Below, piece after piece: positions 11,535 through 31,813 of a stretch of 39,658 nucleotides of DNA. Made by a program: the position numbers and the translations under genes. The notes below the pieces were generated by a model that was not told where the DNA came from, did not search any database, and worked only from the letters and a program-made list of their open reading frames with translations. The DNA is from Nitrospiria bacterium (lineage in GTDB: Bacteria > Nitrospirota > Nitrospiria > SBBL01 > JAADHI01), in assembly GCA_945787655.1 (NCBI GenBank), contig CALZIJ010000001.1, forward strand, positions 65,726 to 105,383. Direction: 5' to 3'. Position 1 is the stretch's first letter, and each line of letters starts with the position of its first letter.

Positions 11535-11537
11535 GGG

Positions 11538-14684: not shown

Positions 14685-16231
14685 AACTCCGCACTGACAA
14701 ACACCCCAAAAATACTGCGCTGGTAATCATAAACGGGAACATTCGAGTGATTGTTCTGGTAGAGATATTGGGCGGATAGGGTTAAAATCTCCGTCATGGA
14801 CCTTGAAACCATTCCTATAAAAAGAAAATCATTATCTTCCCGCTCCACCTGGGGAGTGGCGGCACTGTTTAAGTCTGTATAATCCCGGCGGACCAGGTCC
14901 GTTTCAAAGGAAAAAACCAGCGTTTTCCATGAGGGCAGAGTCAGTCCAAGATTAATACGGTGACCATAATAACTCCAATCATCCTCGTCCGCACTGTTTC
15001 CTGCGTCTTCTATTTCAAACTGATATCCCCCAAAAAAATGTCCTTTGTCTCCAAACAACACAATGTGATTCGCCCCGAACTGGTGGATATCGGCATCCCG
15101 ATTGGTATTCCCCGCAAACAGCGGCTCGATATTCTCAAAACTTTTATGACCATATCTGTAAACAAACTCACTGTAATGATTGTTTTCATGTTTGACAGCG
15201 AAACGAGGGCCAATCCCGTGATGTTTTAAATAACTATCCCCTCCCAGTGAAACATATTGAAACTCGTAAACCAGACTCAGTTCATGCACACCGATTTGAC
15301 GTCGTCCCGTCAGAATGAGCTGATGGTCCTGGATATTAAAATCGTCCAGATTGCTTTCAAAATGCACATTTTGAAAAAACCGATATTCAATGGTGCTGCT
15401 CCACTGGTCTTTCTTCAGCCAATCATATTGCCCTTTTAAATAAAAGACTCCCAGGAAATCATCCTTATCCGTAATACCGGAAGAGACCGCGCCGCCCCCC
15501 GGATCAAGCACCACATTGTCATCGTATTGAAACCCGAACGAGGTCAAAATCTTCCAGGGCTTTTTATCTACGGATTCGCTTTCGATCAGCCGAATAAAAT
15601 CCTGGGCCGGACCCGAAAACTCCCCCTGAGGCTCCAGAGCCAGCACTTCCTGAAATTTTACTTTTGCCGAATCCGCAGCACCCGCTTCATATTCAGAAAT
15701 ACCCGTCTGGAAACTCACAAGGGTCGCAAGGTCCGGATCAAGTTGAACGGCTTTCTGAAGCTTGAGATCGGCCTCTTTCGGTTTTCCATTTCGACGCAGA
15801 ATCAGCCCCTGATAATAATGAACACGGGCCCGTCCCGGATCGACCGATTCTACAATTTGAAGCGCCTTCATCGCGTCCTCATCTTTTCGAATTTGAAAAT
15901 AGAGCACCCCCAAATCAAACCGGGCCGGGATGAAGGTCCGATCGATGGACAGCGCTTTTTTAAACTGGGCTTCTGCTTCGCGATCCCGGTTAGACCGTGC
16001 CTGCACGACACCCAGATAATAATGCGCTTCCACTCCGTTGTTGTCCTGTGCAATCGCCGATTCAAATTGCTCCAATGCCGCATCAAGATTGTTACGATTC
16101 AGTTGCGCCACACCGGTCGAAAGAAAATCATAGTATGGCCCATTAACTTCGGCCTTTAGCACTGCGGGCATGCTGAATATGAACAGAACGGTCAGAAAAA
16201 AAAGTCGACTTCCAGGCTTGGACAATAACAT
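14681..16231 (-). CDS. TPR plus outer-membrane beta-barrel protein
   Basis: The 516-residue protein has a signal peptide (1-27), five or six TPR units (about 33-215, e.g. VEAHYYLGVVQARSNRDREA), and then a roughly 290-residue stretch of alternating aromatic strands ending VFVSAEF, typical of a C-terminal barrel. TPR-plus-barrel proteins include exporters of polysaccharide (PgaA, BcsC) and of surface lipoproteins (Slam). Its length and the two large lipoproteins encoded just upstream make a Slam-like role attractive, but the barrel sequence was not recognised. It is the last gene of the 13-gene minus-strand cluster, and no terminator follows before the convergent glycosyltransferase. Confidence 0.75.
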   Translation of the reverse strand: MLLSKPGSRLFFLTVLFIFSMPAVLKAEVNGPYYDFLSTGVAQLNRNNLDAALEQFESAIAQDNNGVEAHYYLGVVQARSNRDREAEAQFKKALSIDRTFIPARFDLGVLYFQIRKDEDAMKALQIVESVDPGRARVHYYQGLILRRNGKPKEADLKLQKAVQLDPDLATLVSFQTGISEYEAGAADSAKVKFQEVLALEPQGEFSGPAQDFIRLIESESVDKKPWKILTSFGFQYDDNVVLDPGGGAVSSGITDKDDFLGVFYLKGQYDWLKKDQWSSTIEYRFFQNVHFESNLDDFNIQDHQLILTGRRQIGVHELSLVYEFQYVSLGGDSYLKHHGIGPRFAVKHENNHYSEFVYRYGHKSFENIEPLFAGNTNRDADIHQFGANHIVLFGDKGHFFGGYQFEIEDAGNSADEDDWSYYGHRINLGLTLPSWKTLVFSFETDLVRRDYTDLNSAATPQVEREDNDFLFIGMVSRSMTEILTLSAQYLYQNNHSNVPVYDYQRSIFGVFVSAEF

Positions 16232-16268
16232 GTGTACTCCTAAAATTTATTGATTATCGGCCTTTGCA

Positions 16269-19200
16269 TCAAGGCACTTTAAAGATTTCTATTTGGTCTA
16301 TTGCAAACCCCTGTGTAGACGGTCTGTTGTTTGTCATATCAATTGAAATTTCAGACAAATCACAGCTTGTTTCCGTATCGGGCCCGGGCACGCAAATTTC
16401 GAAACCCTCGTAAATGTCTTTCCCGTCAACACGCAAACTGGAAACTTTTTCATCAAAATCGAGTGTAAATTCAAATAATTGAGAAACCCCCGCTTGCCAC
16501 GGCACGACGCTTTGATCAATAAAGGAGACACCTTCTTCATCATAGATAAGGCCTGTCATGAACGCGCGAATACTGTCTCGAACAATGATCGTGACATTCG
16601 CATTCGTCAAGGTACTCGTCACCAGTGACCGCCATCGGATCAGATAAACACCGGTATTCGGCGGCTTTCCAGCCACCAAGCCATCCAAACCAAAACGGCC
16701 TTCATCGGAGACATTGAGAACAAGCGGTTTTTCGCCCAAATCACCCGCCTTCTCCTGTACCAGAATGGTGCCGTCCAGGTCCGGGTTTAAGCGTAATTCA
16801 AGCTGGTCCCCCTCAGGGTGTCCGGGAAGTGTTGTGTTTGGCGGTTTCGCCACATCGTCCTGATCAAAGAACGCACGAAAAATAGCAGTGGACCTGAAAT
16901 TGGCTGTCACCGTTTTGTTCGCATCCATCGTAACATTGCACGACGTAAAGCCCGCGCCGTCACAACCCGACCAGTCCGTAATCGTAAAATCGGAATCCTC
17001 GGCAGGCTCCGCTGTAAGCGTGACATTCCGGCCGAACGGAAAATTGGCCGAAACCCTGGTGCATCCACTGCCGCAATCAATGCCCCTCGGTGTGCTAAAG
17101 ATGCGTCCACTGCCTGTCCCCGTTTTAATCAGGGTTAAGGTTCGCGTATCCAGGGTAAAGCTGGCTGTACAGCTTTTGTCCCGATTCATCGTCACTGACC
17201 CGCCTTCGCATTCTGCGGCATCCGGCCCGCTCCAGCCCGAAAAGGTTGAGCCGGGACTCGGATCAGCACGCACCGTCACGACACTCCCAAAATCATACGT
17301 CCCCGCACCACTTATTGTCCCCGAACCCGTGCCTGCAGTCGGCAGGCTTAAGCTGTGCCTGACCGTGACATCGTCATCCTGATTGGTCACAAAAACAGTG
17401 GCTCCCTCACTGCCATAATCCGGATCGCTGCTTGTTGCCGACAAGATAATTTCATAATTCTGAGGACCATCCACAATCGTGTCGTTTACACCGGTAACGA
17501 CGACCGGTTGGGGTGTTTTCCAGTTTGATGCATCAAAACTGAGGGATGCAGGAGAGGCGGTGCCTTCTGCCGGTCTGTTTGATGTCAGCACGATGGACAC
17601 GTCGCTTTCGGGTTGTGTACCGAGGGTGACCATAAAGGTATCAAAACCGCCTGCTTCCGTGGTCACCAGTCCGGTGTCCGGTGTCGCGCGGATACCGATA
17701 TTGCATGCGCCATCGGGGGTTTGTGTGGCGCCGCCATCATCTACATCGCTATCAATTTCTAATAAAATATCGACACCCGGAATGGTGTCCGTATACGTGC
17801 CCACGGTGGGCGGCTCATGATCCCATTGATTATTCTGTGCGAAAAGAAGCGTCCCCGTATTCACAAACAGATCTGCATCGATATTACAACTCAGGATGTT
17901 TTGTCCGATACTCCCGCCTTCGCTTCCCAAATCCGGGGCCGCGGTATCGAATACGGACACCCCGGTCAGATTATCGGAGATGATATTGCGCTCAAGCACG
18001 GGGGCGGCTTCATCCATGATTTCGATGCCTGTAACGTTTCCAACAAAGGTGTTTCCTGTAATGCGGGGCATTGCGGTTCCGCTGACCCGGATGGCCTGAG
18101 AAAATCCCCTGAAATCATCTTCCCCAAAAACGTTGTTCTGAATCAGAGGCGCACCGGCATTATTCGCCAGGATGGCGATTGGCGATAAACAGTCTCCCGC
18201 GCAGGTGGTCTTAAAGATATTGTTTGTAATGATGGGCGCGGTCCCGTTGGTTTCAATAATGCGTTCAAATGAGGGGCTGCTTTGAATGGTAAATCCAGTC
18301 AACGTGGCATTGTCCGCACCCTCTATCGCCGTGCTCGTTGTTGAACCCGGAAGCACAAAATCAATGATCGCCGGACCATCCGGCCCTGACGCACTGCTTA
18401 AAATGACTCCTGATTTTAATGGGAGCGGGGCAATTTCACTCCCGGTACCTGAACCAAAAGCATAGACACCCGGCGCGGCCAGAACCATTTCCCCCGGCGC
18501 CGCCAAGCGCATCGCATGGGTCAAGGTTCTACAGGGCGCCGTTTCGGTCCCGCAGTCCGGGGTGTCCTCACCGATGGACACACTCACATGACGAACCCGA
18601 CCAAACAGGGTCACAGCGGATTCATCAAAATAAAGCGCAGGATCGGTATCACTGGCCCCTTTGACGATGATGGGCAAGGTAGAGGGCAATCGGTCCGGGG
18701 CTGTATAAATCGCCGTATTCACATCGGATGGCGTGATTGTGCCGACTATTTCGTTTCCGTTTGGTTCATTATTGACAAACCATTGCGTTTCATTATGGTC
18801 AAGGAGGGGGTGAATTGTGGTGCTGAAGGTTTGAGTCTCCCCTATGGCGACAGCGACTTCTTCGGGGTCCAGTGCAACCGGCGGTGAAACCGTGATGGGC
18901 AAAGTGATTTGTGGGCCCACTTCCAGATCGGTGACTGCCCGGCCGTAAAACTGGACCTTCCCTTCTGCATCAAAAGCATCCACAGTGAATGTGCGGTCTT
19001 CGCCAGCCAAGACATTTAGCGTCAGTGCTACAGGCTCACCCGGCGTGACTTTGGCGGCATCTCGCGCCAATTCAGTGTTGTTGGCATTGGTCACCACAAC
19101 CCGGACTTCCTGGATAACCGGAGGTGCGCCTGTCGCCATACGGGTTTTGGTCGACCCTTTCTGTCCCACATTGCTGATGTCGATTGAAATCCCGACAGCC

Positions 19201-19337
19201 GTTGTGTTTTCAGAACCTGCGTTAGGGGCAGCCCCTTCCTGACCGCAAGAGGACATTAAAAAAAAGAAACACAACAATAAAACAGGGAACAGGCTTAAAG
19301 CAGGTTTTTCAAAAACTTTTTTGTTCGCAATGCGCAT
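16269..19337 (-). CDS. Very large surface lipoprotein with right-handed beta-helix and Ig-like/InlB-B-type repeats
   Basis: The 1022-residue protein has a lipoprotein signal ending LMSSC (C31). Residues 45-150 are a beta-sandwich domain shared with the 728-residue lipoprotein nearby. An Ig-like unit with WFVNNEPNGNEIVGTI and AIYTAPDRLP follows (about 155-240). A right-handed parallel beta-helix of the DUF1565 type (about 250-530, repeated N-N-x-F/I turns such as ITNNIF, IQNNVF, ITGNTF) comes next. A Calx-beta-like region (about 565-660) precedes two InlB-B/'bacterial repeat' units ending TASFTLD and TVTANFRS. A C-terminal jelly-roll-like domain closes the protein. This is the build of a surface adhesin or glycan-binding protein; no catalytic residues were identified. 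Confidence 0.8.
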   Translation of the reverse strand: MRIANKKVFEKPALSLFPVLLLCFFFLMSSCGQEGAAPNAGSENTTAVGISIDISNVGQKGSTKTRMATGAPPVIQEVRVVVTNANNTELARDAAKVTPGEPVALTLNVLAGEDRTFTVDAFDAEGKVQFYGRAVTDLEVGPQITLPITVSPPVALDPEEVAVAIGETQTFSTTIHPLLDHNETQWFVNNEPNGNEIVGTITPSDVNTAIYTAPDRLPSTLPIIVKGASDTDPALYFDESAVTLFGRVRHVSVSIGEDTPDCGTETAPCRTLTHAMRLAAPGEMVLAAPGVYAFGSGTGSEIAPLPLKSGVILSSASGPDGPAIIDFVLPGSTTSTAIEGADNATLTGFTIQSSPSFERIIETNGTAPIITNNIFKTTCAGDCLSPIAILANNAGAPLIQNNVFGEDDFRGFSQAIRVSGTAMPRITGNTFVGNVTGIEIMDEAAPVLERNIISDNLTGVSVFDTAAPDLGSEGGSIGQNILSCNIDADLFVNTGTLLFAQNNQWDHEPPTVGTYTDTIPGVDILLEIDSDVDDGGATQTPDGACNIGIRATPDTGLVTTEAGGFDTFMVTLGTQPESDVSIVLTSNRPAEGTASPASLSFDASNWKTPQPVVVTGVNDTIVDGPQNYEIILSATSSDPDYGSEGATVFVTNQDDDVTVRHSLSLPTAGTGSGTISGAGTYDFGSVVTVRADPSPGSTFSGWSGPDAAECEGGSVTMNRDKSCTASFTLDTRTLTLIKTGTGSGRIFSTPRGIDCGSGCTRVSANFPFGRNVTLTAEPAEDSDFTITDWSGCDGAGFTSCNVTMDANKTVTANFRSTAIFRAFFDQDDVAKPPNTTLPGHPEGDQLELRLNPDLDGTILVQEKAGDLGEKPLVLNVSDEGRFGLDGLVAGKPPNTGVYLIRWRSLVTSTLTNANVTIIVRDSIRAFMTGLIYDEEGVSFIDQSVVPWQAGVSQLFEFTLDFDEKVSSLRVDGKDIYEGFEICVPGPDTETSCDLSEISIDMTNNRPSTQGFAIDQIEIFKVP

Positions 19338-19372
19338 TTTTAAACTCTTTAATTTTGTTAACTTACTCCGGT

Positions 19373-20623
19373 TTATGGAAAATCAATCACAACCTCGACA
19401 GGAACTGTGGTGCCGCCGGCACCACAGGGGGGTGTGCAGGTCGGCGGCAATACAATTGGACGCTCGATATCGGGAAACCGCGTTGTCGGAATACGCACTG
19501 CTGCTTCAAAACGAAAGGGAAGCTCCCGGGTTTTATCAATGGACTCCGCTCCTGAAATAATTTGATCCATCGGCAATAACAACAAAGGGGTTTCCAGCAA
19601 GGCTTTTCTTGCAATCTCAAAATTCGGGTCTTCCTCAAGGGCCAACACAAAAGAACGGGCGGCTTCCCGGTAATTGTCTTCATCGAAATGTTCCAACCCT
19701 TCGGAAAAATGCTGAAAGGCCACAAAGTTTTTGGTGTGTATCTTTTCAATGGCCAAACGGGTTTGATCATCCAGGCTTTCCGGGCAATACCCAATACCGC
19801 AAAGCAATTTAAAAACAAGCATTTTTTCCAGCGTATAAAAAGAAGCCAACTCCCCCGTGGTATCCACTGTGGAGACATTCTTTCCACTTTCGGTTTGGGT
19901 CACCGTGGCGTCGATCCGCATTTTTTCATCGTCCAGGTCTAACAGGCTGCCAGAGGTAAAACGGGCCGCGCCCACGAGTTTACCCATTCGGGGAGCGCTT
20001 AAATCACTGACAAGACCGGACTTCGCAAGCTTGAGTTCATTCAGAACCGCCTGAATCTGAATACGCTCAACAACGGTCAAGCCCTTCACTTTTGCAAGAT
20101 CCGTAATAATCATCGCCGCAAGGCCCTTCGAGAGCGGGGCATAGGTCTCCGATCCTTTGTTTTCAAAGGGATAGACTGCAATCGCCTTCGGATCCAACTG
20201 CGTTGCAAGTTGTTTTTCCTGACTAATTTGTTCTTTGGCCACCCGTTGGGCTTCCTGTTTTAAAAGCTGGGTTAAATATTGTGAAATCTGACGTCCGCTT
20301 TCACTCCCTTCTTCAAGCTGAACATAATTTTGCCAGGCCTGAATGGCCAGGGATTGATTCCCTAATCGAAGGTGGCTCAACCCCAGATAGAGGGATTGTA
20401 TGGCGCTCCAATCCTCAGAACCTCCAAGCGCCGAAACCACGTCATTGTATTGGCCGGCACTGTAAAGTTTTTTAATCTCTTGGTCGTCAATGCCGGGAAT
20501 CGCCCAACTGCGGACGGGCATGAACACCATGATCAAGATAGACGCGGTTAACAAGCGCCGTAAAAACATGTCTTTTTTAAGCAGATGAAAACCGCCTTGC
20601 ACTGTATTATTTTTCTGGAACAT
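19373..20623 (-). CDS. Secreted TPR / CsgG-like protein
   Basis: The 416-residue protein has an N-terminal signal (hydrophobic core about residues 25-37, cleavage near WAIPG), a TPR-like helical section (45-125), then a CsgG/FlgO-type alpha-beta domain (about 145-275). That domain begins AIAVYPFENKG and contains TDLAKVKGLTVVERIQIQAV, the family's hallmark VVER region. A second TPR pair follows (about 300-345), then a proline-rich tail with a CTPPCGAGG pair. CsgG domains form or assist outer-membrane secretion channels or bind peptidoglycan-side partners. The ATG at 20623 has AGGAG 10 bases upstream. It is one of four CsgG-type proteins in the cluster. Confidence 0.75.
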   Translation of the reverse strand: MFQKNNTVQGGFHLLKKDMFLRRLLTASILIMVFMPVRSWAIPGIDDQEIKKLYSAGQYNDVVSALGGSEDWSAIQSLYLGLSHLRLGNQSLAIQAWQNYVQLEEGSESGRQISQYLTQLLKQEAQRVAKEQISQEKQLATQLDPKAIAVYPFENKGSETYAPLSKGLAAMIITDLAKVKGLTVVERIQIQAVLNELKLAKSGLVSDLSAPRMGKLVGAARFTSGSLLDLDDEKMRIDATVTQTESGKNVSTVDTTGELASFYTLEKMLVFKLLCGIGYCPESLDDQTRLAIEKIHTKNFVAFQHFSEGLEHFDEDNYREAARSFVLALEEDPNFEIARKALLETPLLLLPMDQIISGAESIDKTRELPFRFEAAVRIPTTRFPDIERPIVLPPTCTPPCGAGGTTVPVEVVIDFP

Positions 20624-20645
20624 AATGACTTCGCTCCTATTATTT

Positions 20646-20662
20646 AATCCTTTTAAAGGATT
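20646..20662. repeat. Short palindrome between two cluster genes
   Basis: AATCCTTT-T-AAAGGATT is an 8-bp perfect dyad in the 90-bp gap before the TPR/CsgG gene. No T run follows. It could be a regulator site or an mRNA hairpin. Confidence 0.35.
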
Positions 20663-20713
20663 AGCTCACTTCTATTTAAAACTTAAAGTTCCCATTCCTT
20701 TTATTGAGAGGCA

Positions 20714-22900
20714 TCATTCTCCCCATGCAAACCACACGAGATTTCCGGATTCATTATCTTTCGGTCCGTTCCATACCGAGAAAACCCGGCCCGCGCGGTC
20801 AACTGCGATGGAGGCATCCAATTTCGGGAAACCTGCCACATCACTGATTCTTGAAAATGAAAACGGCGCACCCTCTTCCGTGCTTTTGGCCAGATAGACC
20901 AAGTCATCTGACCCCTCTTCCACAAAGGCGATGTATATGCCGCTGGCCCCATCCCACGCAATGCTGGGGGAATGTTGCAAAGGCAAAGATTCCTGATCTA
21001 GACGTCGTACTTCTTGATCAAGGCCAAAAGAGAAACCTGTGGTGTCTATTTTCCCGATATCAAAAACAAGTTCAATACAGCCGTCTCCGCAACTGTCATT
21101 TTCCCAGACAATGTAAAGAGTGCCTGGAGGGCCGGGCGCTAATGAGGGACGCATGGACATAATGGCATCAAAACCGCTGAGGTCGTTGACTTGAACACCA
21201 CTTGAAAAAGACCCTCCGCCATCCACTGACGCGGCGGAAAAAAGTGCGGTTTCAGGCGGCATAATAACGGCTGCACTTTCAATTGCTTCATCAGCGTGCT
21301 CTGTCCAGGCCGCAAAGACAACACCCCCTTCCGAAATACTTAAGACTGGAGATTTTTCAGCGAGTGTTTTCTGTGAAAGCGGTTTCGGATTTTCATCGAT
21401 CACGGTGCCATCGGCTTTCAAGCGCTGATAATAAATATCGTAGTTTGTTAATTCCGCCTTTTCCGCCCAAGCCGCAAAAACCGTCCCATCAGGCGCCACT
21501 GCAATGCTGGGGTTCGGTTCAGGGGCGCCATTTTTCATCAGTTGTGTTGCCTGAAAAACACTGTCTTCCTGGTCTTGAATCAAAAGCCACACGAATGTGC
21601 CCTGCCCCGGGATGGTTTCTTCGAGAATAATATAAACCTCGCCCTGGGGTCCGATCGCAATCGCCGGTTTTTCTGCACTCCCCCCGGTACAGGAAAATAT
21701 CAGTTCCGGGTTTGTCCAGTTAAACCTGTTCTGGCTTTTGGCAAAGAAGATGTTGGTGCCGTCACTCCACGTGGCGTAAACAGTGCCCTGATAAAAGGCG
21801 GTGCTCCTTTGTCCCGAAGAACGGGTTGAGGCTTCTGGGTCTGAAATCGGCACATTCTCAGAAAAGCGGATTTGTGGTCCGGTCATCACCCTGACCATAG
21901 CCATGTCACTTGAAACAGGGTTGGTTTGACTCCGTGCCTCAATACGGAGTTCAAACGGAACGCCGATCAATGCCTTGCTCGTATCCACCGGGATTAAAGA
22001 CGGCGCAGTATAAAGGCCCTCTGAGTCAATCGTTCCCAGAATATTATTTCCACCGACCACGTCATTGATCGTCCAAGACACACCGGAGGGATCAATCCCA
22101 TTTAAAGTAAACAATTGACTTTCCATTTTAGGAACAACGGCCGCCCGGGGCGATATTTGGAATTCAGGATTTTTAAGGTTGATCTTCGCCGTTCCAAAAA
22201 CCGTTGAATCTGAGCGACTGACGGCTTTGAGTGTCAGTAAATTAGCCTCCGGGAATGACGCAGGCGCTGTGTAGATTGCGGTGTTCCCCTGAATCACGAG
22301 CACACCTAAGGCTTCACTGCCTCCAACAATATCATTCACCGACCAGGTCAATTCGGGATCGGAAAGCTGGCTGACATCGGCTGTAAAAGTCATTTGACTT
22401 AAAAGCTCTACCGTTGCATCTTTGGGAGTAATGATGATGGACTCTTCAGGGGGAGCGGGGGTCGTCCGGCTCATCTCGATTGTAATCGAAACAGTCGTCC
22501 CCGGGAAAAGATCAACGGTTTTTTGACCTTCGAAAATCAGATCCCCTTCTCCATTGGTTTTTGAAAATGCTTCTACGATGAAAATCCGGTCGAAGCCTGC
22601 TTCCACTTCCAGGGGGACAGAAAGTGATTCTCCCGGAATCACATTGACCAAAGCGGTCTCTGCTGCGGGAGCGCCTGTCGATGTGGCCACTTGCACCCGA
22701 ACGGACTGTACCTCTTCGCTCGGTGGTTTTGATCTTTTTAATGACGACGCGGTCTTATTGTTTCCTGCCGTCGTCAATTCCAATGTCACTCCCGCAGAAT
22801 GATTACCGGCAGCAGGTTGTTCTTGACTGCACCCACTTAAGGAGAAAAACGCGAGAACGCATGGCAACAATAACCTGTATCCCGTTTTCTGAATTTGCAT
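20714..22900 (-). CDS. Large lipoprotein with Ig-like units and sialidase/BNR-like propeller
   Basis: The 728-residue protein has a canonical lipobox LSGC (C24). Residues 35-145 match the N-terminal beta-sandwich of the 1022-residue lipoprotein (PGESLSVPLEVEAGFDRIFI against its PGEPVALTLNVLAGEDRTFT). Two Ig-like units follow (about 150-245 and 248-340), each with a W-S/T-V/I-ND-VGG core and YTAP. The C-terminal half has repeated blades such as AIAIGPQGEVYIILEE, SIAVAPDGTVFAAWAE and SIAVDRAGRVFSVWNG, typical of BNR/sialidase-like propellers. It is probably displayed on the cell surface and binds a ligand. AAGGAT lies 6 bases before the ATG. Confidence 0.8.
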   Translation of the reverse strand: MQIQKTGYRLLLPCVLAFFSLSGCSQEQPAAGNHSAGVTLELTTAGNNKTASSLKRSKPPSEEVQSVRVQVATSTGAPAAETALVNVIPGESLSVPLEVEAGFDRIFIVEAFSKTNGEGDLIFEGQKTVDLFPGTTVSITIEMSRTTPAPPEESIIITPKDATVELLSQMTFTADVSQLSDPELTWSVNDIVGGSEALGVLVIQGNTAIYTAPASFPEANLLTLKAVSRSDSTVFGTAKINLKNPEFQISPRAAVVPKMESQLFTLNGIDPSGVSWTINDVVGGNNILGTIDSEGLYTAPSLIPVDTSKALIGVPFELRIEARSQTNPVSSDMAMVRVMTGPQIRFSENVPISDPEASTRSSGQRSTAFYQGTVYATWSDGTNIFFAKSQNRFNWTNPELIFSCTGGSAEKPAIAIGPQGEVYIILEETIPGQGTFVWLLIQDQEDSVFQATQLMKNGAPEPNPSIAVAPDGTVFAAWAEKAELTNYDIYYQRLKADGTVIDENPKPLSQKTLAEKSPVLSISEGGVVFAAWTEHADEAIESAAVIMPPETALFSAASVDGGGSFSSGVQVNDLSGFDAIMSMRPSLAPGPPGTLYIVWENDSCGDGCIELVFDIGKIDTTGFSFGLDQEVRRLDQESLPLQHSPSIAWDGASGIYIAFVEEGSDDLVYLAKSTEEGAPFSFSRISDVAGFPKLDASIAVDRAGRVFSVWNGPKDNESGNLVWFAWGE

Positions 22901-23008
22901 ATTGATCCTTTATTCCGGCTTATAACCCACACCAGAATGACAAATCTTACAATGAATAGGGTTCATATCAGCTCGGCCTGGACTCTCCGAGTGCACTTTT
23001 TGCAGACA

Positions 23009-23725
23009 TCATTCGATGGCCATCATCATCAAGGTTTCCATTCGTATCTTTGCGCGCTGGTTTTCAGGGTTAATTGAAAGGGCCTTTTGGTACGCCATCA
23101 TCGCTTGGTCAATATTATTTTCCTGTTCATATTTCAAACCAAGCTGCAAGTAATCTTGGCTGCTCTTGGGTTCAAAAGTGGTTTTCCCGGTTTTTTTTAG
23201 AAAAAGGCGGCTCGTTTTTTCCGAAAAAGAGCGCTCCAGAATCGGCCTTTCCGCGACTGTACCGTTCATTGAATACGAACCGACAATTTCCCCGCTCTGC
23301 ACTTCAACGAAACGTGCATCAAGCCGAAGGTTTCCAAAAATTTCACTGTATTCCCCCATCAGCAGGTAATGCACCCCCAATAATTGCCCCAGTTGAAGAC
23401 GCCCTTCTTCATTGGTGATGCCTTTGCTCGATAGGGAAAGTTCGCTTAGAAGCTGATCAATGGATTCCCGGTCGATCAGTGAAATCCCCGAAACCCCAAA
23501 AAGTTGTTCTGAAATACGATCCGCCACGGTTCTTGCCAGGCCCAGCGTTTCGGGTGAATGGCTGATACTGTGATCCTCAAAAGGTAACACGGCCACAGTG
23601 AGCACTTGTGGCGGTTTAGGCGCTGGACTGATGCGCGTAGATTTTCCGGAACACGCAGGTACCATACTCAATGTCACGGACAAAATCAAAAGATGTTTAA
23701 AAATTTTTAGACCCTTTTCCCACAT
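23009..23725 (-). CDS. CsgG/FlgO-like lipoprotein with TPR tail
   Basis: The 238-residue protein has a signal peptide with lipobox-like MVPAC (C25). It contains a single CsgG/FlgO-type domain (about 40-180) beginning LTVAVLPFEDHS, with the signature ISLIDRESIDQLLSEL followed by QLGQLLGVHYLLMGEYSE. One TPR unit (about 190-225) follows. FlgO and CsgG relatives sit in the outer membrane; lipidation here fits that. The start lies inside the upstream gene (29-base overlap) and has only a weak ribosome binding site, so translation is probably coupled to the upstream thioredoxin/TPR/CsgG gene. Confidence 0.8.
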   Translation of the reverse strand: MWEKGLKIFKHLLILSVTLSMVPACSGKSTRISPAPKPPQVLTVAVLPFEDHSISHSPETLGLARTVADRISEQLFGVSGISLIDRESIDQLLSELSLSSKGITNEEGRLQLGQLLGVHYLLMGEYSEIFGNLRLDARFVEVQSGEIVGSYSMNGTVAERPILERSFSEKTSRLFLKKTGKTTFEPKSSQDYLQLGLKYEQENNIDQAMMAYQKALSINPENQRAKIRMETLMMMAIE

Positions 23726-25622
23726 TCTCGAGTACTTTTTGATCCTTTAGAATGGGTGCGTTTTTTTCAGTCAGCTTCCCGTAAGACATCCCTTCTTCAA
23801 CAGAAACAATCTCAAGCAGTCCGACTTTTTTCTTGCGATGGCCAATCACTTTTCCATCAATAATAATGGCCTCTCCATCTGCGATAATTTTCATCACGGT
23901 TCCGGTCTGAAGACCATGCTTTCGGCCCAGATTAACGATCACCTGTTGACCTTCTTCAACCAGCGCAATCTTTCCCCGCAGCGGATAGGAGTTTTGAATG
24001 CGTTGATTCAACGATTTTCCGGTAGACTCGGCCAGCGCCATCAGGTTTTTATTCGGTCCCATTTCATCGGCATAGGCAATCTTGACAGCAGAGGTTTCAG
24101 GGTCGATGACACGAAGGCTGAGCCGAATACCGTTAGGAATTTGCACCAGTTTTCCAGTGACGATCAGCCGTGCGGCAAGAATTTTACCCAGTTTCAAGGC
24201 CGTTTCAGGGTCGGCCAAATCCGAAGAACCCAGTTTGAGTTCGAGAAGAAGTTTCTCCAGTATTTCACGCTCCACAACAGAGACACGCGAGTTGGACATC
24301 ATTTGTTGTGCAATTTCCTGTTGAAGGACTTCCGCCATCCCTTCCCGCAGTAAACCGCCGCCAATGGATTTCAGCCCTAAAAATGCGATCGTCATCGGTC
24401 GGGAAGACCACCTATCCATCATCGTTTCTGGCTGCTTATCCCCTTTTTTAAATCGGTCGGCCAGTTCATTCACAAGCTCATCCACTCGTTTCTGCCGGGC
24501 CATGTCTTCTTTAAAATCAAGGTGTTGCACAATCCGTTTTGTCAGCAATTGCGCGACTTCGTCGGCCGGGTTTGCGGTCAGTGCTTCCTGATAAAAAGCC
24601 AATGCCTTTTGGGGCTGCCCCTGTTTTTCATAAAGAGCACCCCGATTGGTCAATATTTCAGAGGAAAACGGGTTTTGGTTCACTGCTTCCTGGTACATTG
24701 ATTCGGCCTGATCATATTCCCCGCGTTCCGAATGAATGCGTCCGGCCTGGTTATAAGCTTCTGCGCGCTGCCAGTCATTGCTTAATTTTCCTTCAATGGC
24801 TTCGTTATATTCAGACAAAGCCCCATTTTGATCTCCACGGCTGGCCAGGACGTTGGCCTTGATAAGATGAACCAGGCCATTTTCAGGGTCATCTTTTTTT
24901 ATTTCCTCAGCCACCGCGATGGCTTGAGCCGTTTCTCCTTTTTCAAGGTGTATTGCAGCCAAACCTTCTTTCCCTAAAAGGGCCTCTGGTGTATTTAATG
25001 ACACGACCTTTGAAAAAGCATCTTCAGCCCGATCGAGCTTGCCTTCTTTTAAAAAGACTTCCCCTAAACCGGTTTGTGCGGCCACATTCTCTGGGTCTTT
25101 CTCCAAAACCTTTGCATAGAGGTTTTTGGCGAGCGCATTCTGTTTTAACTGCATACTTCTCTGCGCGACCGTGGTCATAAACTGTTTTGAAGAAGGGCCT
25201 CCACCTTGAAGCGTATCGGTCACCCGGCCGCCAGGGCCAAGAATAACCGTGGTCGGAAGAATAATCTGGATATCGTAATCCTTAAATATTTTTCCCTGAT
25301 CTTCGATGACCGGGAAAGGCAAGTCCGCTTTTTTTAAATATTGGCTTAACCCTTTTGACGACCCTTTGCTAATGGCAATCACCTTAATCCCGGCTTTTTT
25401 GTAGAGTGAATATTGGGTCTTGATTTCTTCCAGCCCGCGTACCGAAGGTTTGGAGGGGTGTGTAAAAAAATAAAGGATCGTCATCGGGGATTTTTCACCG
25501 GATTTCAGTGCGTTGAAGGCCGGGGGGACACTTCCTTTATTAAGCGCAGCGTCGACCGTCGAATAGCCCGAAAAGCTAAGAAGAATCAGAGCAAATATCA
25601 TCCAATTTCTATATTTTTTCAT
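23697..25622 (-). CDS. Cysteine-free thioredoxin-fold / TPR / CsgG-like fusion
   Basis: The 641-residue exported protein has three parts. Residues 28-150 are a redoxin/TlpA-like thioredoxin fold: strand MTILYFFT, then SKPS (57-60) exactly where CxxC should be, and the cis-Pro loop ILPTTVIL near 123. Residues 155-360 are five or six TPR units. Residues 405-545 are a CsgG/FlgO domain (MTIAFLGLKS..., VSVVEREILEKLLLEL), followed by a C-terminal beta domain (about 548-630, VNLGRKHGLQTGTVMKI) like the end of FlgT. I find no cysteine in the whole protein, so it cannot do thiol chemistry; the thioredoxin fold is probably a binding module. It overlaps the kinase gene by four bases (ATGA). Confidence 0.8.
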   Translation of the reverse strand: MKKYRNWMIFALILLSFSGYSTVDAALNKGSVPPAFNALKSGEKSPMTILYFFTHPSKPSVRGLEEIKTQYSLYKKAGIKVIAISKGSSKGLSQYLKKADLPFPVIEDQGKIFKDYDIQIILPTTVILGPGGRVTDTLQGGGPSSKQFMTTVAQRSMQLKQNALAKNLYAKVLEKDPENVAAQTGLGEVFLKEGKLDRAEDAFSKVVSLNTPEALLGKEGLAAIHLEKGETAQAIAVAEEIKKDDPENGLVHLIKANVLASRGDQNGALSEYNEAIEGKLSNDWQRAEAYNQAGRIHSERGEYDQAESMYQEAVNQNPFSSEILTNRGALYEKQGQPQKALAFYQEALTANPADEVAQLLTKRIVQHLDFKEDMARQKRVDELVNELADRFKKGDKQPETMMDRWSSRPMTIAFLGLKSIGGGLLREGMAEVLQQEIAQQMMSNSRVSVVEREILEKLLLELKLGSSDLADPETALKLGKILAARLIVTGKLVQIPNGIRLSLRVIDPETSAVKIAYADEMGPNKNLMALAESTGKSLNQRIQNSYPLRGKIALVEEGQQVIVNLGRKHGLQTGTVMKIIADGEAIIIDGKVIGHRKKKVGLLEIVSVEEGMSYGKLTEKNAPILKDQKVLENVGKGSKNF

Positions 25623-27085
25623 GGCTTCTCCTCCAGTAATTTCAGGTTAAGTGGCGTTTTTTGACCAGAGGGCACATCAATTGTCGCTTCCAGGGCATGG
25701 TATCCTTTTTTAGAAACAACCAGCTCGTGAGAACCCGCAGGCAAGGCCAGCGACACAGGACTCGTACCTTTGTGAATGCCATTAATCTCGATATCCGCCC
25801 CGGTGGGTGACGTTGCAAAAATGACCTCGCCCGTCAGCATTAAAGGCGGCGTCTTTTCCAATTTCTGTTCTTTTAAAGTATTGGATTTTACTTCAATATC
25901 CGATTTTGGGGCCTGCCCCTTACGCGCGGGTTTCAGAAGGGGAGAAGGCTTCGTCAACTCAGGCTGTGAAAGAGGGGAGGGTATTTTTGAAACTGAACCG
26001 GCAGAACGGGGTTCATCCTTCACCGGCCTTTGGATGACAAACAATATCGCAAAAACCGCAAGTACGGCCACCGGCAACACATATATTACCGGCCTCTTCC
26101 ACAAAACCCTGCCCCTGTTTTTCGGAGATATTGCGGTTTTCGGGGAGTCACCAGCCCCCTCTGAAGAAAAAGTGTTCGCCACCACTCGGGTTTCAAGCAT
26201 TTTTTCCAGATCTGTAATTTCTTCAGTCATCGATTCGCTTGTGGATTGATCAGAAGAAAACTCGGCTGTCTCTTCAAGTGATAGTAATAAGGCATCCGCC
26301 ATCTCCAGGCCTGAAGAAAAACGGGCATCGGGTTCTTTTTCCAGAGCGCCCATGATGACGGCACTTAAAGATTCATTGGTGGTATCGGTCACCAGATAGG
26401 GCGCATAGGGCGTATGATTTAAAATCTGGTGCATAATGCTGGTCACTGAATCCCCATGAAACGCCTTTTGTTGTGTCAAAAGTTCATAAAGTAACGCGCC
26501 CACGGCAAAAAGATCAGAACGTCCATCCAGTATCTCTCCCCGGCATTGTTCCGGGGACATGTATTGAGGCGTACCCGCCAAGTGATTGCTTTGTGTCAGA
26601 CCGATGCTATCCAGGCGTGCGATACCGAAATCTGTAATTTTAACCGTTTGCAGATCTTCTGAAAGCAGGATATTTCCGGGCTTAATGTCCCGGTGGATCA
26701 CATCTTTCGTATGGGCAAAATGAAGCCCCTTACAAACTTGAATACCGATGTGAACAATTTGCTCCGGCGTGAAGCGGGTTTCTTCTTTGATCAGTTTCGC
26801 CAGGGAAGTGCCTTCAACATACTCCATGACGATGTAGGTGTTATTTGATGAAGTATCTTCCCAGACATCAAAAATGGTGACGATATTGGGGTGGATCAAT
26901 CGTCCGAGCGCACGAATTTCCTGTTCGAACCGGCGGCCTGCACTTTCATGCGCTTCCAGAATATGGGGCCTTAAACACTTTAATGCCACATCACGATTAA
27001 TTTTCGGATCTTTCCCGCGAAAAACGATTCCCATCGCGCCGCGCCCGATTTCTTCAATCATCTGATAACGCATTGGTGTTTCCAT
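25619..27085 (-). CDS. Transmembrane Ser/Thr protein kinase with periplasmic PEGA domain
   Basis: The 488-residue Hanks-type kinase has all key residues: glycine loop GRGAMG (14-19), K36, E56, HRDIKPGN with D133, DFG at 152-154, and GTPQYMSPEQ in the activation/P+1 region. It should be catalytically active in the cytoplasm (residues 5-270). An acidic linker leads to one membrane helix (about 333-351), a Lys/Pro-rich periplasmic spacer, and a C-terminal PEGA domain (about 418-485, with the family's GTSPVSLALPAGSHELVV-type core). PEGA domains are surface or envelope binding modules. The gene lies 9 bp after the protease gene and overlaps the thioredoxin/TPR/CsgG gene. It probably senses the state of the envelope or of the secreted proteins. 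Confidence 0.92.
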   Translation of the reverse strand: METPMRYQMIEEIGRGAMGIVFRGKDPKINRDVALKCLRPHILEAHESAGRRFEQEIRALGRLIHPNIVTIFDVWEDTSSNNTYIVMEYVEGTSLAKLIKEETRFTPEQIVHIGIQVCKGLHFAHTKDVIHRDIKPGNILLSEDLQTVKITDFGIARLDSIGLTQSNHLAGTPQYMSPEQCRGEILDGRSDLFAVGALLYELLTQQKAFHGDSVTSIMHQILNHTPYAPYLVTDTTNESLSAVIMGALEKEPDARFSSGLEMADALLLSLEETAEFSSDQSTSESMTEEITDLEKMLETRVVANTFSSEGAGDSPKTAISPKNRGRVLWKRPVIYVLPVAVLAVFAILFVIQRPVKDEPRSAGSVSKIPSPLSQPELTKPSPLLKPARKGQAPKSDIEVKSNTLKEQKLEKTPPLMLTGEVIFATSPTGADIEINGIHKGTSPVSLALPAGSHELVVSKKGYHALEATIDVPSGQKTPLNLKLLEEKP

Positions 27086-27094: not shown

Positions 27095-28561
27095 TTATTG
27101 TTCAGCTTCCACGGCACTCAACCACTGACCAACCTGAACGGCATCCGCTGATCTGGGTTTTAATTCCAGATATTTCCGATAATGCATGGCCGCCTGCTTT
27201 CGTTTATTCAAATGATTATCATACAGAATACCCAGATTGTAGTGCGCCTCGGCATACCCTGGATTACTTAAAACAGCTCTTAAATATGCCGTTTCCGCGG
27301 CTTCATACTGTTTAAGTCTGCGATACACCTCGCCTAAATTATTCAGGGCCTGAGGCGATTCCGGCCAAAAATTACTACTGCTTAAGAGGGCATCCGCCGC
27401 GTCATTATAGCGTTTTGCCTCGGCAAACAAGTTTCCTATTTGCAGGAACGTTTCACCGAGAAAATGCCGGACTTCCCGCGCAGGCAGCGCAAAAGCGATC
27501 CCCTGCGCATGTGGAAGCATGCCAACAATGACCCCCAGGACTTCTCCTCCTTTGTTCAATAAGGGCCCGCCGCTGCTTCCAGGATTAATGGCCACATCGG
27601 TTTGCAAGAGGTATTTATCACCAATTCTCCGTTCCGGGGCACTGATAATCCCTTGTGACGCAGTGTGATTAAGGCCAAAAGGACATCCCACAGCCAAAAC
27701 AGGGTCGCCCGCCTGGGGAGATTTTTCGCGATTGAAACCCAACGGTTCCATACCTTGAAAGGGAATTTGAAGCAGTGATAAATCAAGCGCATCACTCACT
27801 GAAAGCAATGTTGCCGGGTAAGTGCTCCCGTCCTGAAATTGCGCGGTCAGACGGATTGCACGTTTTACCTGATGACCGCTGGCTAAAATGTAGCCGCCTT
27901 TCCCGACCATGAACCCACTGCCTTCAACTTTTTTTCCACCTGCCGTGCCGGTAATGCAAACAACCTGGGGGAAAACACCTCTTTCCACAGGGCGGCCGGC
28001 AGACGACTCCGGCACGACTGGGGAAACTATGGGTGGCTGCAAGAGTTCCCCGGCCAAGGGATCAGGCGCGGTATGAGATAAATTTCGACGATTAAACGAC
28101 CCTTTTTCACCTGCGATCCGGGTTAATTGGGCTAACTTATTTTGGGCCTTGGGGGCAAGCGGGTGGCCGGGGGCCATTTTTAGAAAGCGCCGATAATGAA
28201 AAATGGCCTGAACGGTGTCTTTTTTTTCAAAAGAATACAGATTTGCAAGATTATAATGCGCTTTGAAGTGTTTCCTGTCGATACGAACCACCTCACGGTA
28301 ATTCATAATGGCATCGTCTATTTTTTCCATACGCTGGTAAATCACACCCCGCTTAAAATAGGCTTCCGTATTTTCGGGGTCATGTTGAACTGCTTTATCC
28401 AGATGAGAAAGGGCTTTTTCCCAATTTCCCTGGTCATAGGCAATCAACCCCTCTTCGAGGTCAGTGGGCCCTGTGCCAGTCGGCGCAACGTGCCGAAAAC
28501 AGCCCGTGAGTCCGGTTAAGGCAAAAACAAAGATTACGGTATTGAGGATATTTTTAGTCAT
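27095..28561 (-). CDS. TPR / trypsin-like (HtrA-type S1C) protease / TPR lipoprotein
   Basis: The 488-residue protein has a lipobox GLTGC (C21), three TPR units (about 33-135), a Pro-rich linker, a trypsin-fold protease (about 195-370) and two or three C-terminal TPRs (about 375-475). The catalytic triad is intact: H230 in ASGHQV, D260 in DALDLSLL and S330 in NPGSSGGPL. No PDZ domain is present; TPRs take its place on both sides and may present substrates. A lipid anchor puts it in the envelope, where it could process or check the cluster's secreted proteins. It has its own sigma-70 promoter and is the first gene of a tightly packed run with the kinase and CsgG-type genes. Confidence 0.88.
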   Translation of the reverse strand: MTKNILNTVIFVFALTGLTGCFRHVAPTGTGPTDLEEGLIAYDQGNWEKALSHLDKAVQHDPENTEAYFKRGVIYQRMEKIDDAIMNYREVVRIDRKHFKAHYNLANLYSFEKKDTVQAIFHYRRFLKMAPGHPLAPKAQNKLAQLTRIAGEKGSFNRRNLSHTAPDPLAGELLQPPIVSPVVPESSAGRPVERGVFPQVVCITGTAGGKKVEGSGFMVGKGGYILASGHQVKRAIRLTAQFQDGSTYPATLLSVSDALDLSLLQIPFQGMEPLGFNREKSPQAGDPVLAVGCPFGLNHTASQGIISAPERRIGDKYLLQTDVAINPGSSGGPLLNKGGEVLGVIVGMLPHAQGIAFALPAREVRHFLGETFLQIGNLFAEAKRYNDAADALLSSSNFWPESPQALNNLGEVYRRLKQYEAAETAYLRAVLSNPGYAEAHYNLGILYDNHLNKRKQAAMHYRKYLELKPRSADAVQVGQWLSAVEAEQ

Positions 28562-28663: not shown

Positions 28664-29722
28664 TTACTCAAGGACTGCATAGGCTTTATCACTATGATTT
28701 AAACGTGTGATCTCAGCTCCAGTCGGACTTCCATTGTTCAATCCCGGTTGAGTCACAGGTCGGGCAAAGCGTACGATATCGCCTTTTTTCGGCAGCACAC
28801 TCCCCCGGACCATCCGCGCCTGAGAAAACTTTTCTTTGCTTGAAATGACCCCCAGTTCCCCAATCGGGTTTTCGATTAAGCCGACGACCTGATTGGTTTC
28901 TGGATCGGTCAATACTTTTTTTATGGAAAAAACAGAGAGGCGGTCACCGACCTGCACATGCGCATTTGTCCCTGCATTAACATAAACAACCTGGTTTTCC
29001 ACGTGAATGACTTTCCCCAGCCAATTTGAATAAGATTTCAGCCGCTCCTGAACGGCACCTAAAACAAATCGAAGGGATTCTCCAATCACTTTTCGGGTCG
29101 CTTTTCCCAACGGTGTTTTGTGAAATGCATCCCCGCCAAAAGTAAAAAGCGGAAAACTGAAATCTACAGCGAGCGCTTTTTCCCAGGATCGTCCTTCCGC
29201 ACGGTGTGAACTTAAGATCTCTCCTGTGGACGTATCAATGATTCTTAAATCAATGCCCACATGTGCGGCAGTGAATTCGCCTGAAGCTTTCGGGAAAATA
29301 CCAGCCAACCAGCCTGCCCGTGCGCCGCCGCCGACGGCTTTTTGCTCAAACTCGGTCACTTGACCCACAATTAAATAATCCACGCCAAGCAACTGGCCGA
29401 CTTGGGCCGCGGTCTCTTTCGTGACCAGTTTGGAATCCGTCAATTCCTGCTCCCGTAAAATTTGAGAAAGGATGGCCCGTTCCACCACAATCACCTGACC
29501 GGAATCAATGAGTTCCGTGACCAGTTGCGCAGAAAGCCCGCCACCAATATCCCAACCGCCGTAAACTTGCGCAAAACGGTCTGTCGCGCCAAAACGGGCC
29601 ACCGCGACCCGCACCTTGGCGCCCCCGGCTGCCTCTGCTGGCGATACCCATACGGGAAAAGTAGAAAACAACCCGACGATAATGAAGAGGATGACGGAAT
29701 ATATTTTTTGTGTCTTTTTCAT
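28664..29722 (-). CDS. CsgG-family protein (curli-type export/assembly factor)
   Basis: The 352-residue protein has a signal peptide (about 1-32, cleavage near AEAAGG) and a full CsgG domain: VRVAVARFGA, DIGGGLSAQLVTELIDSGQV, VVERAILSQILREQEL, and GQLLGVDYLIVGQVTEF. It also has the strand block AAHVGIDLRIIDTSTGEILS that forms the pore in true CsgG. A C-terminal extra domain (about 245-320) with beta strands and VQVGDRLSVFSI looks like an OB/FlgT-C-type fold. Unlike E. coli CsgG there is no lipobox Cys. The ATG at 29722 is chosen for GGAG at 6 bases' spacing. It is 26 bp after a small secreted protein gene and is the best candidate exporter for the small proteins encoded upstream. Confidence 0.85.
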   Translation of the reverse strand: MKKTQKIYSVILFIIVGLFSTFPVWVSPAEAAGGAKVRVAVARFGATDRFAQVYGGWDIGGGLSAQLVTELIDSGQVIVVERAILSQILREQELTDSKLVTKETAAQVGQLLGVDYLIVGQVTEFEQKAVGGGARAGWLAGIFPKASGEFTAAHVGIDLRIIDTSTGEILSSHRAEGRSWEKALAVDFSFPLFTFGGDAFHKTPLGKATRKVIGESLRFVLGAVQERLKSYSNWLGKVIHVENQVVYVNAGTNAHVQVGDRLSVFSIKKVLTDPETNQVVGLIENPIGELGVISSKEKFSQARMVRGSVLPKKGDIVRFARPVTQPGLNNGSPTGAEITRLNHSDKAYAVLE

Positions 29723-29748
29723 GACATTCTCCTCGCCTTTAAATGTTT

Positions 29749-30225
29749 TTAACATCGTTTTTCCGTTTGATTAATAATATTGACATTCACTTCGTTATTG
29801 ATACTGCCGTCATTGTCTTCCACATTTGCCTCATTGCTGGAATCGATCACAACATCTCCCAGAATGACGACACCGCCTTCTCCAGTCACTTTTTCCAGGC
29901 GGGAGCGCGCGCGGTCCGCCGCCGTACACTCCACATCGGGCGGAGTAGACGGGAAGACATTCGCACGAACGCGGATTTGTTTTTCAACACGTTCCTGACG
30001 TTGCCGCACCCCGCGCAATTCTTTGGAAAATGCTTTTGCTTCTTTTTCTTTTTTAAGTTCTTCCGGTGTTTTTTCTTTTTCGTCTTCCTTTTCGGCCTCA
30101 GCCGATTCCTGTACTGCTGCCTCACTAATAATGGGAGGGGCCGCAAGACTTTGTCCTGTCCGGCCTCCAAATAAGACTGCTAAAAGGAGAAGAAATATCG
30201 TTGTCATGATTGGCTTTGTTTTCAT
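29749..30225 (-). CDS. Secreted charged coiled-coil protein with beta-rich tail
   Basis: The 158-residue protein has a signal peptide (cleavage near SLAAPP), a strongly charged Glu/Lys helix (about 38-85, probable coiled coil), and a C-terminal Asn/Val/Asp-rich tail (VVILGDVVIDSSNEANVEDN, then NEVNVNIINQ). That tail resembles the beta/Asn-rich style of the three small proteins encoded upstream. It ends with a Cys, and another Cys lies in the middle. No known family is recognised. The ATG at 30225 follows GGAGAG. Its position directly before the CsgG-family gene suggests it is a substrate or co-factor of that exporter. Confidence 0.7.
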   Translation of the reverse strand: MKTKPIMTTIFLLLLAVLFGGRTGQSLAAPPIISEAAVQESAEAEKEDEKEKTPEELKKEKEAKAFSKELRGVRQRQERVEKQIRVRANVFPSTPPDVECTAADRARSRLEKVTGEGGVVILGDVVIDSSNEANVEDNDGSINNEVNVNIINQTEKRC

Positions 30226-30275
30226 AAATGCTCTCCTTTCAGATGGACTTAATATTTTGTTTGCCGTATTTAACA

Positions 30276-30629
30276 TTATCGATTGCTCGTCGTGGTCGTA
30301 TTGTTTGTATTATTGTGACTCTTGTTCACACCCATGATGATCGTGCTCGACGTGGTGTTAATGTCCCCGGAGTTGGAACCACCGACAGTTACCGAATTAG
30401 AGGTATTCATTTCAACACCGCTTACGACCACACTGTCTCTTAAGTTTCCAAAGTGCTGGGTCCGCTCTTCATTTTGCGCCTCTTCATTCGGCAGTTCTTC
30501 ATCATCTTCCAGATAGGCCTCGGAAGTGTCTTCCTCACAGGACATCAGGCATCCTGCTTCAATGAAAGAGACATTCCCCAAAAAGACCAGTATTCCAAGT
30601 ATGAATGCGATAAATCTTTTTTTGTCCAT
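30276..30629 (-). CDS. Small secreted protein, third and divergent member of the EAGC/GV-x-KSH family
   Basis: The 117-residue protein has a signal peptide ending ...IEAGC, with a C-x3-C pair (CLMSC) just after it, then an acidic segment rich in Glu. Its C-terminal half is Asn/Ser/Thr-rich. It shares with the two tandem proteins the DSVVV strand and the terminal motif MGVNKSHNN followed by a Thr run. The ATG at 30629 has AAGGAG 9 bases upstream. It is probably a structural or matrix-forming secreted protein, judged from composition only. Confidence 0.7.
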   Translation of the reverse strand: MDKKRFIAFILGILVFLGNVSFIEAGCLMSCEEDTSEAYLEDDEELPNEEAQNEERTQHFGNLRDSVVVSGVEMNTSNSVTVGGSNSGDINTTSSTIIMGVNKSHNNTNNTTTTSNR

Positions 30630-30707: not shown

Positions 30708-30719
30708 GAGAAATCCTGA

Positions 30720-31082
30720 TCACGACTGGTTTACGTTAAACTCGGTGGTTGTCCGGGAAAAGTTATCATGGCTTTTGTCTACACCCTGCATCAGGGCTGT
30801 GGAGTTGGCCTGAACCTGGCTACCGACAACATCCCCTCGGACGTGGGCGTGGGTATCCCCGGCTTCGACAGTGACGTCTTTGACCACGACACTGTCAGTC
30901 GCATTTTGCCCCATGTTGTCAATTTGATCGCCACCGATATTATCGCTGTCGTTACGGAAGTTGTTTGTGACTGATTCGTCATCGCCGCCGCAACCGAAAA
31001 GGCATCCGGCTTCGCTGATTCCCGCTGATCCTAAAATGAAGGCCAATCCTAAAAACGCTGCAATCATTGTCATCTTTTTCAT
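30720..31082 (-). CDS. Small secreted Asn-rich protein, tandem paralogue A
   Basis: The predicted 120-residue protein has a signal peptide ending ISEAGC, a C-x3-C pair (CLFGC), then an Asn/Asp/Gln-rich stretch (SVTNNFRNDSDNIGGDQIDN), a repetitive Val/Thr strand region (DSVVVKDVTV, HAHVRGDVVGSQVQ) and the terminal MQGVDKSHDN motif followed by Thr-rich residues. About 80% of residues are identical to its neighbour at 31167. Composition and small size recall curlin-like or beta-solenoid secreted proteins, but no curlin repeat is present and no family is recognised. The second ATG (31082) is chosen because GGAG is only 2 bases from the first. Confidence 0.75.
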   Translation of the reverse strand: MKKMTMIAAFLGLAFILGSAGISEAGCLFGCGGDDESVTNNFRNDSDNIGGDQIDNMGQNATDSVVVKDVTVEAGDTHAHVRGDVVGSQVQANSTALMQGVDKSHDNFSRTTTEFNVNQS

Positions 31083-31117
31083 TTTCATTTCTCCTTTTTT
31101 TTATAGTGGTTTTTTAG

Positions 31118-31150: not shown

Positions 31151-31166
31151 AGGACATTTCACGCTC

Positions 31167-31526
31167 TTACTGATCCACGTTAAACGTGGTCGTTGTGGTT
31201 GAGATATTGTCATGGCTTTTATCCACACCCTGCATCAGTGCCGTGGAGTTGGCTTGGACCTGGCTTCCGATCACATCGCCGCTGATGTGTGCATGGGTAT
31301 CACCAGATTCAATCGTTACGTCTTTTGCGACCACACTGTCGACTGCAAACTGTCCCATGTTATCGATTTGGTCGCCGCCAATGTTGTCACTGTCATTTCG
31401 TCTGTTATTGGTAACAGACTCGTCATCACCGCCGCAGCCGATGAAACACCCGGCTTCGCTGATTCCAACAGACCCAACAACCATAGCCAATCCAAAAACC
31501 GCTGCAAACATTGTCATTTTTTTCAT
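31167..31526 (-). CDS. Small secreted Asn-rich protein, tandem paralogue B, first gene of the cluster
   Basis: The predicted 119-residue protein has the same plan as paralogue A: signal peptide to ISEAGC, C-x3-C pair (CFIGC), Asn/Asp/Gln-rich segment, DSVVAKDVTI strand, HAHISGDVIGSQVQANSTAL, and terminal MQGVDKSHDN. Differences from paralogue A are mostly conservative. The frame is open further upstream, but that part spans the sigma-54 promoter and 5' leader. The ATG at 31526 has GGAG at 8 bases' spacing. As the promoter-proximal gene it is probably the most highly expressed of the cluster. Confidence 0.78.
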   Translation of the reverse strand: MKKMTMFAAVFGLAMVVGSVGISEAGCFIGCGGDDESVTNNRRNDSDNIGGDQIDNMGQFAVDSVVAKDVTIESGDTHAHISGDVIGSQVQANSTALMQGVDKSHDNISTTTTTFNVDQ

Positions 31527-31561
31527 TTTCATTTCTCCTTTTTTTATTGTTATTAGCGAAG

Positions 31562-31589
31562 GATGAGATTGCCCTATTGCTTTCTCATC
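31562..31589 (-). promoter_or_regulatory. 5'-leader hairpin of the secreted-protein cluster
   Basis: GATGAGA (31562-31568) pairs perfectly with TCTCATC (31583-31589) in the predicted 84-base leader. No T run follows. It may protect the 5' end or modulate translation. Confidence 0.45.
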
Positions 31590-31619
31590 TGCCAGCATCG
31601 CGTTACGGTATGGGTATGT

Positions 31620-31636
31620 AGCAAGGCGCGTGCCAA
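31620..31636 (-). promoter_or_regulatory. Sigma-54 (RpoN) promoter of the secreted-protein cluster
   Basis: On the minus strand the bases read TTGGCACG-CGCC-TTGCT, again an exact match to YTGGCACG-N4-TTGCW. The predicted start is near 31609, leaving an 84-base leader before paralogue B. This is the only good promoter found between guaA and the small secreted proteins. Confidence 0.88.
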
Positions 31637-31739
31637 AACTAAAAACACCTTTAAGAGGCATAAATCGCTCCTTTTTTTGGTATATAAGAAAGATTGATAT
31701 TAATTTTTTAATTTCTGGAAAGTGATTTTCGGAATTCAG

Positions 31740-31760
31740 AAAATGCGAGGGGATCTCGCA
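31740..31760 (-). terminator. Probable terminator of guaA
   Basis: TGCGAG (31744-31749) pairs with CTCGCA (31755-31760); on the minus strand the stem is followed by TTTT. It lies 54 bp after the guaA stop. The same dyad is about 108 bp upstream of the sigma-54 promoter, so an enhancer-site role is an alternative. Confidence 0.5.
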
Positions 31761-31813
31761 GTATTGAGAAACAGTCTAATCGTTAGCGGAGTTTTACTGG
31801 CGCTTTAATGTGC

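Follow-up and report, generated by a model that had tools for sequence, protein, structure and literature searches.

Our analysis of a 39,658-nt stretch of a Nitrospiria bacterium genome (hereafter, the window) revealed a site on the minus strand, at 31636-31620, that very probably (roughly 0.9, judging from sequence comparisons) serves as the working sigma-54 promoter of a gene cluster for small secreted proteins and a CsgG-family protein. The promoter type itself is ordinary, that of a classical sigma-54 promoter, and we infer that its activity depends on RpoN. The promoter, its upstream element and the genes that follow, all on the minus strand, are listed below.

31726..31743, minus strand: upstream palindrome 1, TTTTCTGAATTCCGAAAA, conserved in 12 of 12 promoters (sequence model R1, E = 2.5e-8)
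31705..31722, minus strand: upstream palindrome 2, CTTTCCAGAAATTAAAAA, weaker and 21 bp from palindrome 1
31620..31636, minus strand: predicted sigma-54 (-24/-12) promoter, TTGGCACG-CGCC-TTGCT, from direct reading and the genome-wide pattern; core invariant in 12 orthologous promoters
31167..31532, minus strand: small secreted protein, paralogue B, 121 aa, with signal peptide and conserved CxxxC; first gene of the operon
30720..31088, minus strand: small secreted protein, paralogue A, sharing 82% identity with B
30276..30629, minus strand: third, divergent paralogue
29749..30276, minus strand: small secreted acidic protein, with a C-terminal pattern also present in distant CsgG operons
28664..29755, minus strand: CsgG-family protein (PF03783, E = 2.6e-30)
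27095..28561, minus strand: trypsin-like/TPR protein (PF13365 and TPR), syntenic in relatives
25619..27085, minus strand: Ser/Thr protein kinase with PEGA domain (PF00069, E = 2.9e-54; PF08308), syntenic in relatives
14681..25622, minus strand: remaining co-directional run of TPR/CsgG-like, DUF1565/InlB-repeat and TPR proteins, largely syntenic in Ca. Manganitrophus

Read 5' to 3', the minus-strand 17-mer TTGGCACGCGCCTTGCT is an exact -24/-12 consensus, agreeing at every position with both GG-N10-GC and the fuller TGGCAC-N5-TTGC. The site precedes the first ATG of paralogue B (31532) by 88 nt, and the -12 C at 31621 predicts a transcription start near 31609. The first-pass annotation, which had described a perfect consensus on the correct strand about 90 bp ahead of paralogue B, with a start expected near 31609, is borne out in these respects. 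Just past the predicted start lies a leader stem-loop (GATGAGA...TCTCATC, window ~31594-31562, minus strand), which folds better than mononucleotide shuffles in several relatives, not in all; leader hairpins of differing sequence occur in several relatives and are missing from others, and no Rfam family was found within 28000-33500.

The same annotation had considered exact chance matches in an intergenic gap rare. Within the window, the 16-nt core TGGCACGNNNNTTGCW is matched exactly twice, starting at 31620 and 6308 on the minus strand; these are the only matches in the whole genome (3,042,780 bp, 168 contigs), and a reversed-pattern control gave 0 matches genome-wide. Simple arithmetic predicts about 0.7 exact chance matches in 3 Mb, both strands counted, and the match is therefore weaker evidence than had been claimed; conservation, rather than the match alone, must carry the argument. 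Two sites against an expectation of this size would fit an accidental match, with the cluster transcribed from a sigma-70-type promoter, but no sigma-70-type site was matched in the gap upstream of paralogue B on the same strand.

Conservation was examined in 58 related genomes, this one counted. Twelve of them (Nitrospirota, including Ca. Manganitrophus) encode relatives of paralogue B, and each of the 12 carries a high-scoring sigma-54 site before the cluster (the scoring matrix represents the published consensus, and its scores are relative only). At 11 core columns of the promoter alignment identity reaches 99%; applied elsewhere, the same column pattern gives at most 85%. The flanks, the G/A position preceding the spacer and most bases of the four-base spacer are variable. 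A two-strand scan of the window and cluster loci (217 kb) gave 14 sites scoring at least 15, and 11 of these are promoters of small secreted-protein genes. A thirteenth genome (G008), found independently via CsgG and with no other cluster gene detectable, has TTGGCACGGTTATCGCA ahead of a His/Asn-rich secreted gene of its operon. Moreover, one relative (G007) encodes three paralogues, the first two separated by aquaporin-like and ArsC-like genes, and all three have a tandem upstream element and a sigma-54 site of their own. Retention in 13 genomes and at three separate promoters of G007, in surroundings that have diverged, leaves the accidental match strongly disfavoured and, in our estimate, very improbable. 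As the site is kept in every cluster-bearing relative, it is convincing despite the expected number of chance matches; its invariance across orthologous promoters with changing spacers and flanks also supports the earlier view that it is placed to drive the secreted-protein cluster.

Two distant CsgG operons (L106 and L107) have a sigma-54-like site before the first secreted gene, without the upstream element. Other CsgG homologues in the phylum have no such site within the fetched flanks. In the two distant loci (L106 1713-3076 and L107 4582-5940, in MAGs labelled Bdellovibrio and Deltaproteobacteria), Asn/Ser-rich low-complexity secreted proteins precede the CsgG relatives, and we assign them to a wider family of CsgG operons.

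The 17-mer could also be coding sequence, if paralogue B began at an ATG at 31661 and carried a 43-residue extension. The stretch is open in frame, and a Shine-Dalgarno-like GGAG precedes this ATG, but the codon is absent from the sister genome G003, and a strong ribosome site and the signal peptide start at 31532, in keeping with paralogue A and all relatives. As ATG 31661 is not kept in G003, the stretch is most likely non-coding, and we give the longer gene hardly any credence, even less than the accidental match.

The genes downstream of the promoter are co-directional and separated by short gaps from 31532 to about 14681, in an order largely kept in relatives; the run 14681..25622 probably belongs to the same transcription unit. 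The small secreted proteins matched no Pfam or NCBIfam family, and structure prediction for paralogue B gave no usable fold (pLDDT 49). The CsgG-family protein suggests secretion to the cell surface. Strong hairpins without a T-run were seen on the minus strand between paralogues B and A (window ~31150-31105) and between A and the third paralogue (~30715-30670), and in a relative (G001) intercistronic hairpins occupy similar positions; they are possibly mRNA-stability elements that raise the output of the small proteins. A literature search on CsgG with Nitrospirota or Manganitrophus returned nothing on point, and the CsgG-type operon is apparently undescribed.

Two palindrome-like sites are common to the promoters of the 12 genomes: TTTYCNGAATYCCGAAA and TTTCCRGAAACCRAAA, the latter weaker, with 20-23 bp between their starts. 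In every one of the 12, this tandem element occupies the region 66-133 bp upstream of the -24 box, with the downstream palindrome starting 66-112 bp before the box; in G008 the element is matched only partially (TTTTCCGGAAATTTCAGG). Here, the tandem palindrome would be located ~96-134 bp before the predicted start, within the 80-150 bp typical of a sigma-54 activator site. Its dyad form, tandem spacing and distance resemble those of an enhancer-binding protein (EBP) site, and the element is likely to be the binding site of an activator. The helical phasing of the element-to-promoter distance (p ~0.08, four classes) is suggestive only. Within the literature searched, the element is previously unreported.

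A sequence-only model of the upstream element (R1) was run on six genomes. All its confident matches, in this genome (2.5e-8), G003 (7.5e-9), G001 (7.0e-6) and G007 (5.5e-9, 1.7e-8 and 2.5e-7), fall at cluster promoters, and every one of these has a sigma-54 site at a distance of 88-108 nt from the element start. The training sequences match by construction, and the informative part is the scarcity of other matches: the next best score in this genome was 0.05, and the best scores in the cluster-less genomes G005 and G006 were 0.0024 and 0.116, respectively. Two weaker R1 matches accompany sigma-54-like sites, one in this genome (L068/L302) and one at a small gene of G001 (L290). The former (G000:C3:39252) is an exopolysaccharide sugar-transferase gene, where a related palindrome, TTTTTCCGAAATTCGGAAAAA, occurs together with CTGGCACG-GATT-GTGCT; a G003 homologue also has a sigma-54-like site, and co-regulation of this gene with the secretion operon is possible.

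Further sigma-54 sites were found in the genome. The second exact site in the window, TTGGCACG-GTGG-TTGCT (6324-6308, minus strand), is followed after 35 nt by a small DUF2292 gene (6272-6066), and no tandem element was seen there. The pattern TTGGCACNNNNNTTGCT has four exact matches genome-wide, each ahead of a plausible gene start. Two of these are additional to the window sites (L052, G000:C2:57198; L053, G000:C143:3098), of which one precedes a membrane-protein gene and has a different, long palindrome upstream, and the other precedes a secreted-protein gene; they are further sigma-54 units, probably with other activators.

The genome contains rpoN (PF04552, E = 2.7e-58, contig C21) and 17 full Sigma54_activat proteins. 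Together with the invariant site and the tandem palindrome, they support the proposal of the first-pass annotation, and the cluster is very probably switched on from this site by an enhancer-binding activator. The best candidate for this role is an EBP with two FHA domains, Sigma54_activat and HTH_8 (FHA-EBP, L043; contig C10 of this genome, ~10439-12100), to which we give a little under an even chance on genomic evidence. Within the order, 13 genomes have a clear orthologue of its sensor part (>200 bits); none was found among 40 other genomes of the class. Among 18 genomes of the order, 12 have both cluster and FHA-EBP, 4 neither, one (G005) FHA-EBP without cluster, and one (G016, 72% complete) cluster without detected FHA-EBP (Fisher p = 0.008, a value that ignores relatedness, the genomes being related and the counts not independent). 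In four Manganitrophaceae genomes (G011, G013, G014 and G017) the FHA-EBP gene adjoins the 3' end of the operon convergently; in this genome it is unlinked to the cluster. Its sigma-54 contact loop reads GSYTGA here and GSFTGA, GAFTSA or GAFTTA in relatives, all variants of GAFTGA.

It is an even bet that the sigma-54 promoter is real and is activated by another EBP, e.g., a shared two-component NtrC-type regulator. All six cluster genomes compared share nine of the genome's own EBPs, one of which is FHA-EBP (orthologue table, seven other genomes). In Manganitrophaceae the gene of an unrelated 682-aa EBP lies immediately upstream of the promoter, which makes this protein a possible activator there, and in G008 an EBP gene, a paralogue, occupies the same position. 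However, linkage to the operon across several genomes is not known for any other EBP, and the majority of the non-FHA EBPs also occur in both cluster-less relatives, G005 and G006. Two specific alternatives were rejected. First, the 682-aa EBP (L074 16952-19000, minus strand; L075 794-2860, plus strand) has no counterpart of its sensor part in this genus despite the same upstream element; its 370-aa N-terminal part matches no Pfam family and has distant homologues elsewhere in the class. Second, PrsR is encoded in this genome, but its published motif ends in TTTACA (PMC1569441), unlike the element here, and no orthologue was found in G007 with its three such promoters.

With FHA-EBP as the activator, regulation might proceed as follows. 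RpoN-RNA polymerase would sit at the promoter as a closed complex; the activator, most likely FHA-EBP of contig C10, would bind the tandem palindromes (31743-31705), the DNA would loop, and the activator ATPase would open the promoter. Transcription would then start near 31609 and run into the long minus-strand operon for three secreted paralogues, the acidic secreted protein, the CsgG-type protein, the trypsin/TPR protein, the Ser/Thr kinase and further envelope proteins. FHA domains bind phosphothreonine, and as the operon encodes a Ser/Thr kinase, a kinase-to-activator link is plausible. FHA-EBP might be switched on when its FHA domains bind a threonine-phosphorylated protein, perhaps phosphorylated by the operon's own kinase; such a phosphothreonine trigger is a tentative proposal with the odds against it, and a literature search on FHA found no paper on the mechanism. 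The dedicated circuit as a whole, in which the operon kinase phosphorylates a partner and FHA-EBP reads the phosphothreonine, binds the palindrome and activates the operon, is similarly doubtful. If true, an undescribed curli-like secretion system in relatives of manganese oxidisers would be under the control of a sigma-54 switch that is driven by a kinase and reinforces itself.

These results extend a consensus match to a defined regulatory unit, comprising the predicted -24/-12 site, a putative tandem activator site, a candidate activator and a candidate kinase. The unit would control a CsgG-type surface operon that is conserved in Nitrospirota, the Ca. Manganitrophus lineage among them, and is apparently undescribed. 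Metal oxidation is extracellular, hence the interest in surface proteins of this lineage.

The arrangement resembles that of PEP-CTERM genes regulated by PrsK/PrsR, in which a 17-nt upstream activator motif, sometimes repeated, precedes a -24/-12 site (Haft et al., 2006, PMC1569441); RpoN dependence has been reported for one gene in Aquincola (PMC9850573). In both cases an upstream motif and a -24/-12 site precede genes of secreted surface proteins in environmental bacteria and were identified by phylogenetic profiles. However, the element here, TTTYCNGAATYCCGAAA, differs from the PrsR motif; PrsR is not found in every genome with the site; the genes encode CsgG-linked small proteins without PEP-CTERM; and the best activator candidate has FHA domains in place of a receiver domain.

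As in the curli (csg) system, small secreted proteins are encoded together with a CsgG-family protein (PF03783), a putative pore. Curlin repeats gave no Pfam match in the small secreted proteins P0001, P0002, P0003 and P0006, and membership in the curli family is therefore not claimed; unlike curli operons, the one described here carries kinase, protease and TPR proteins and is predicted to be under sigma-54 regulation. Finally, FHA-domain enhancer-binding proteins are tied to Ser/Thr kinases in Myxococcus. The content of the Nitrospirota operon differs, and the kinase-activator pairing here is putative, but the candidate activator shares with the Myxococcus proteins the combination of FHA, sigma-54 ATPase and Fis-type HTH domains, with a Ser/Thr kinase encoded in the target operon.
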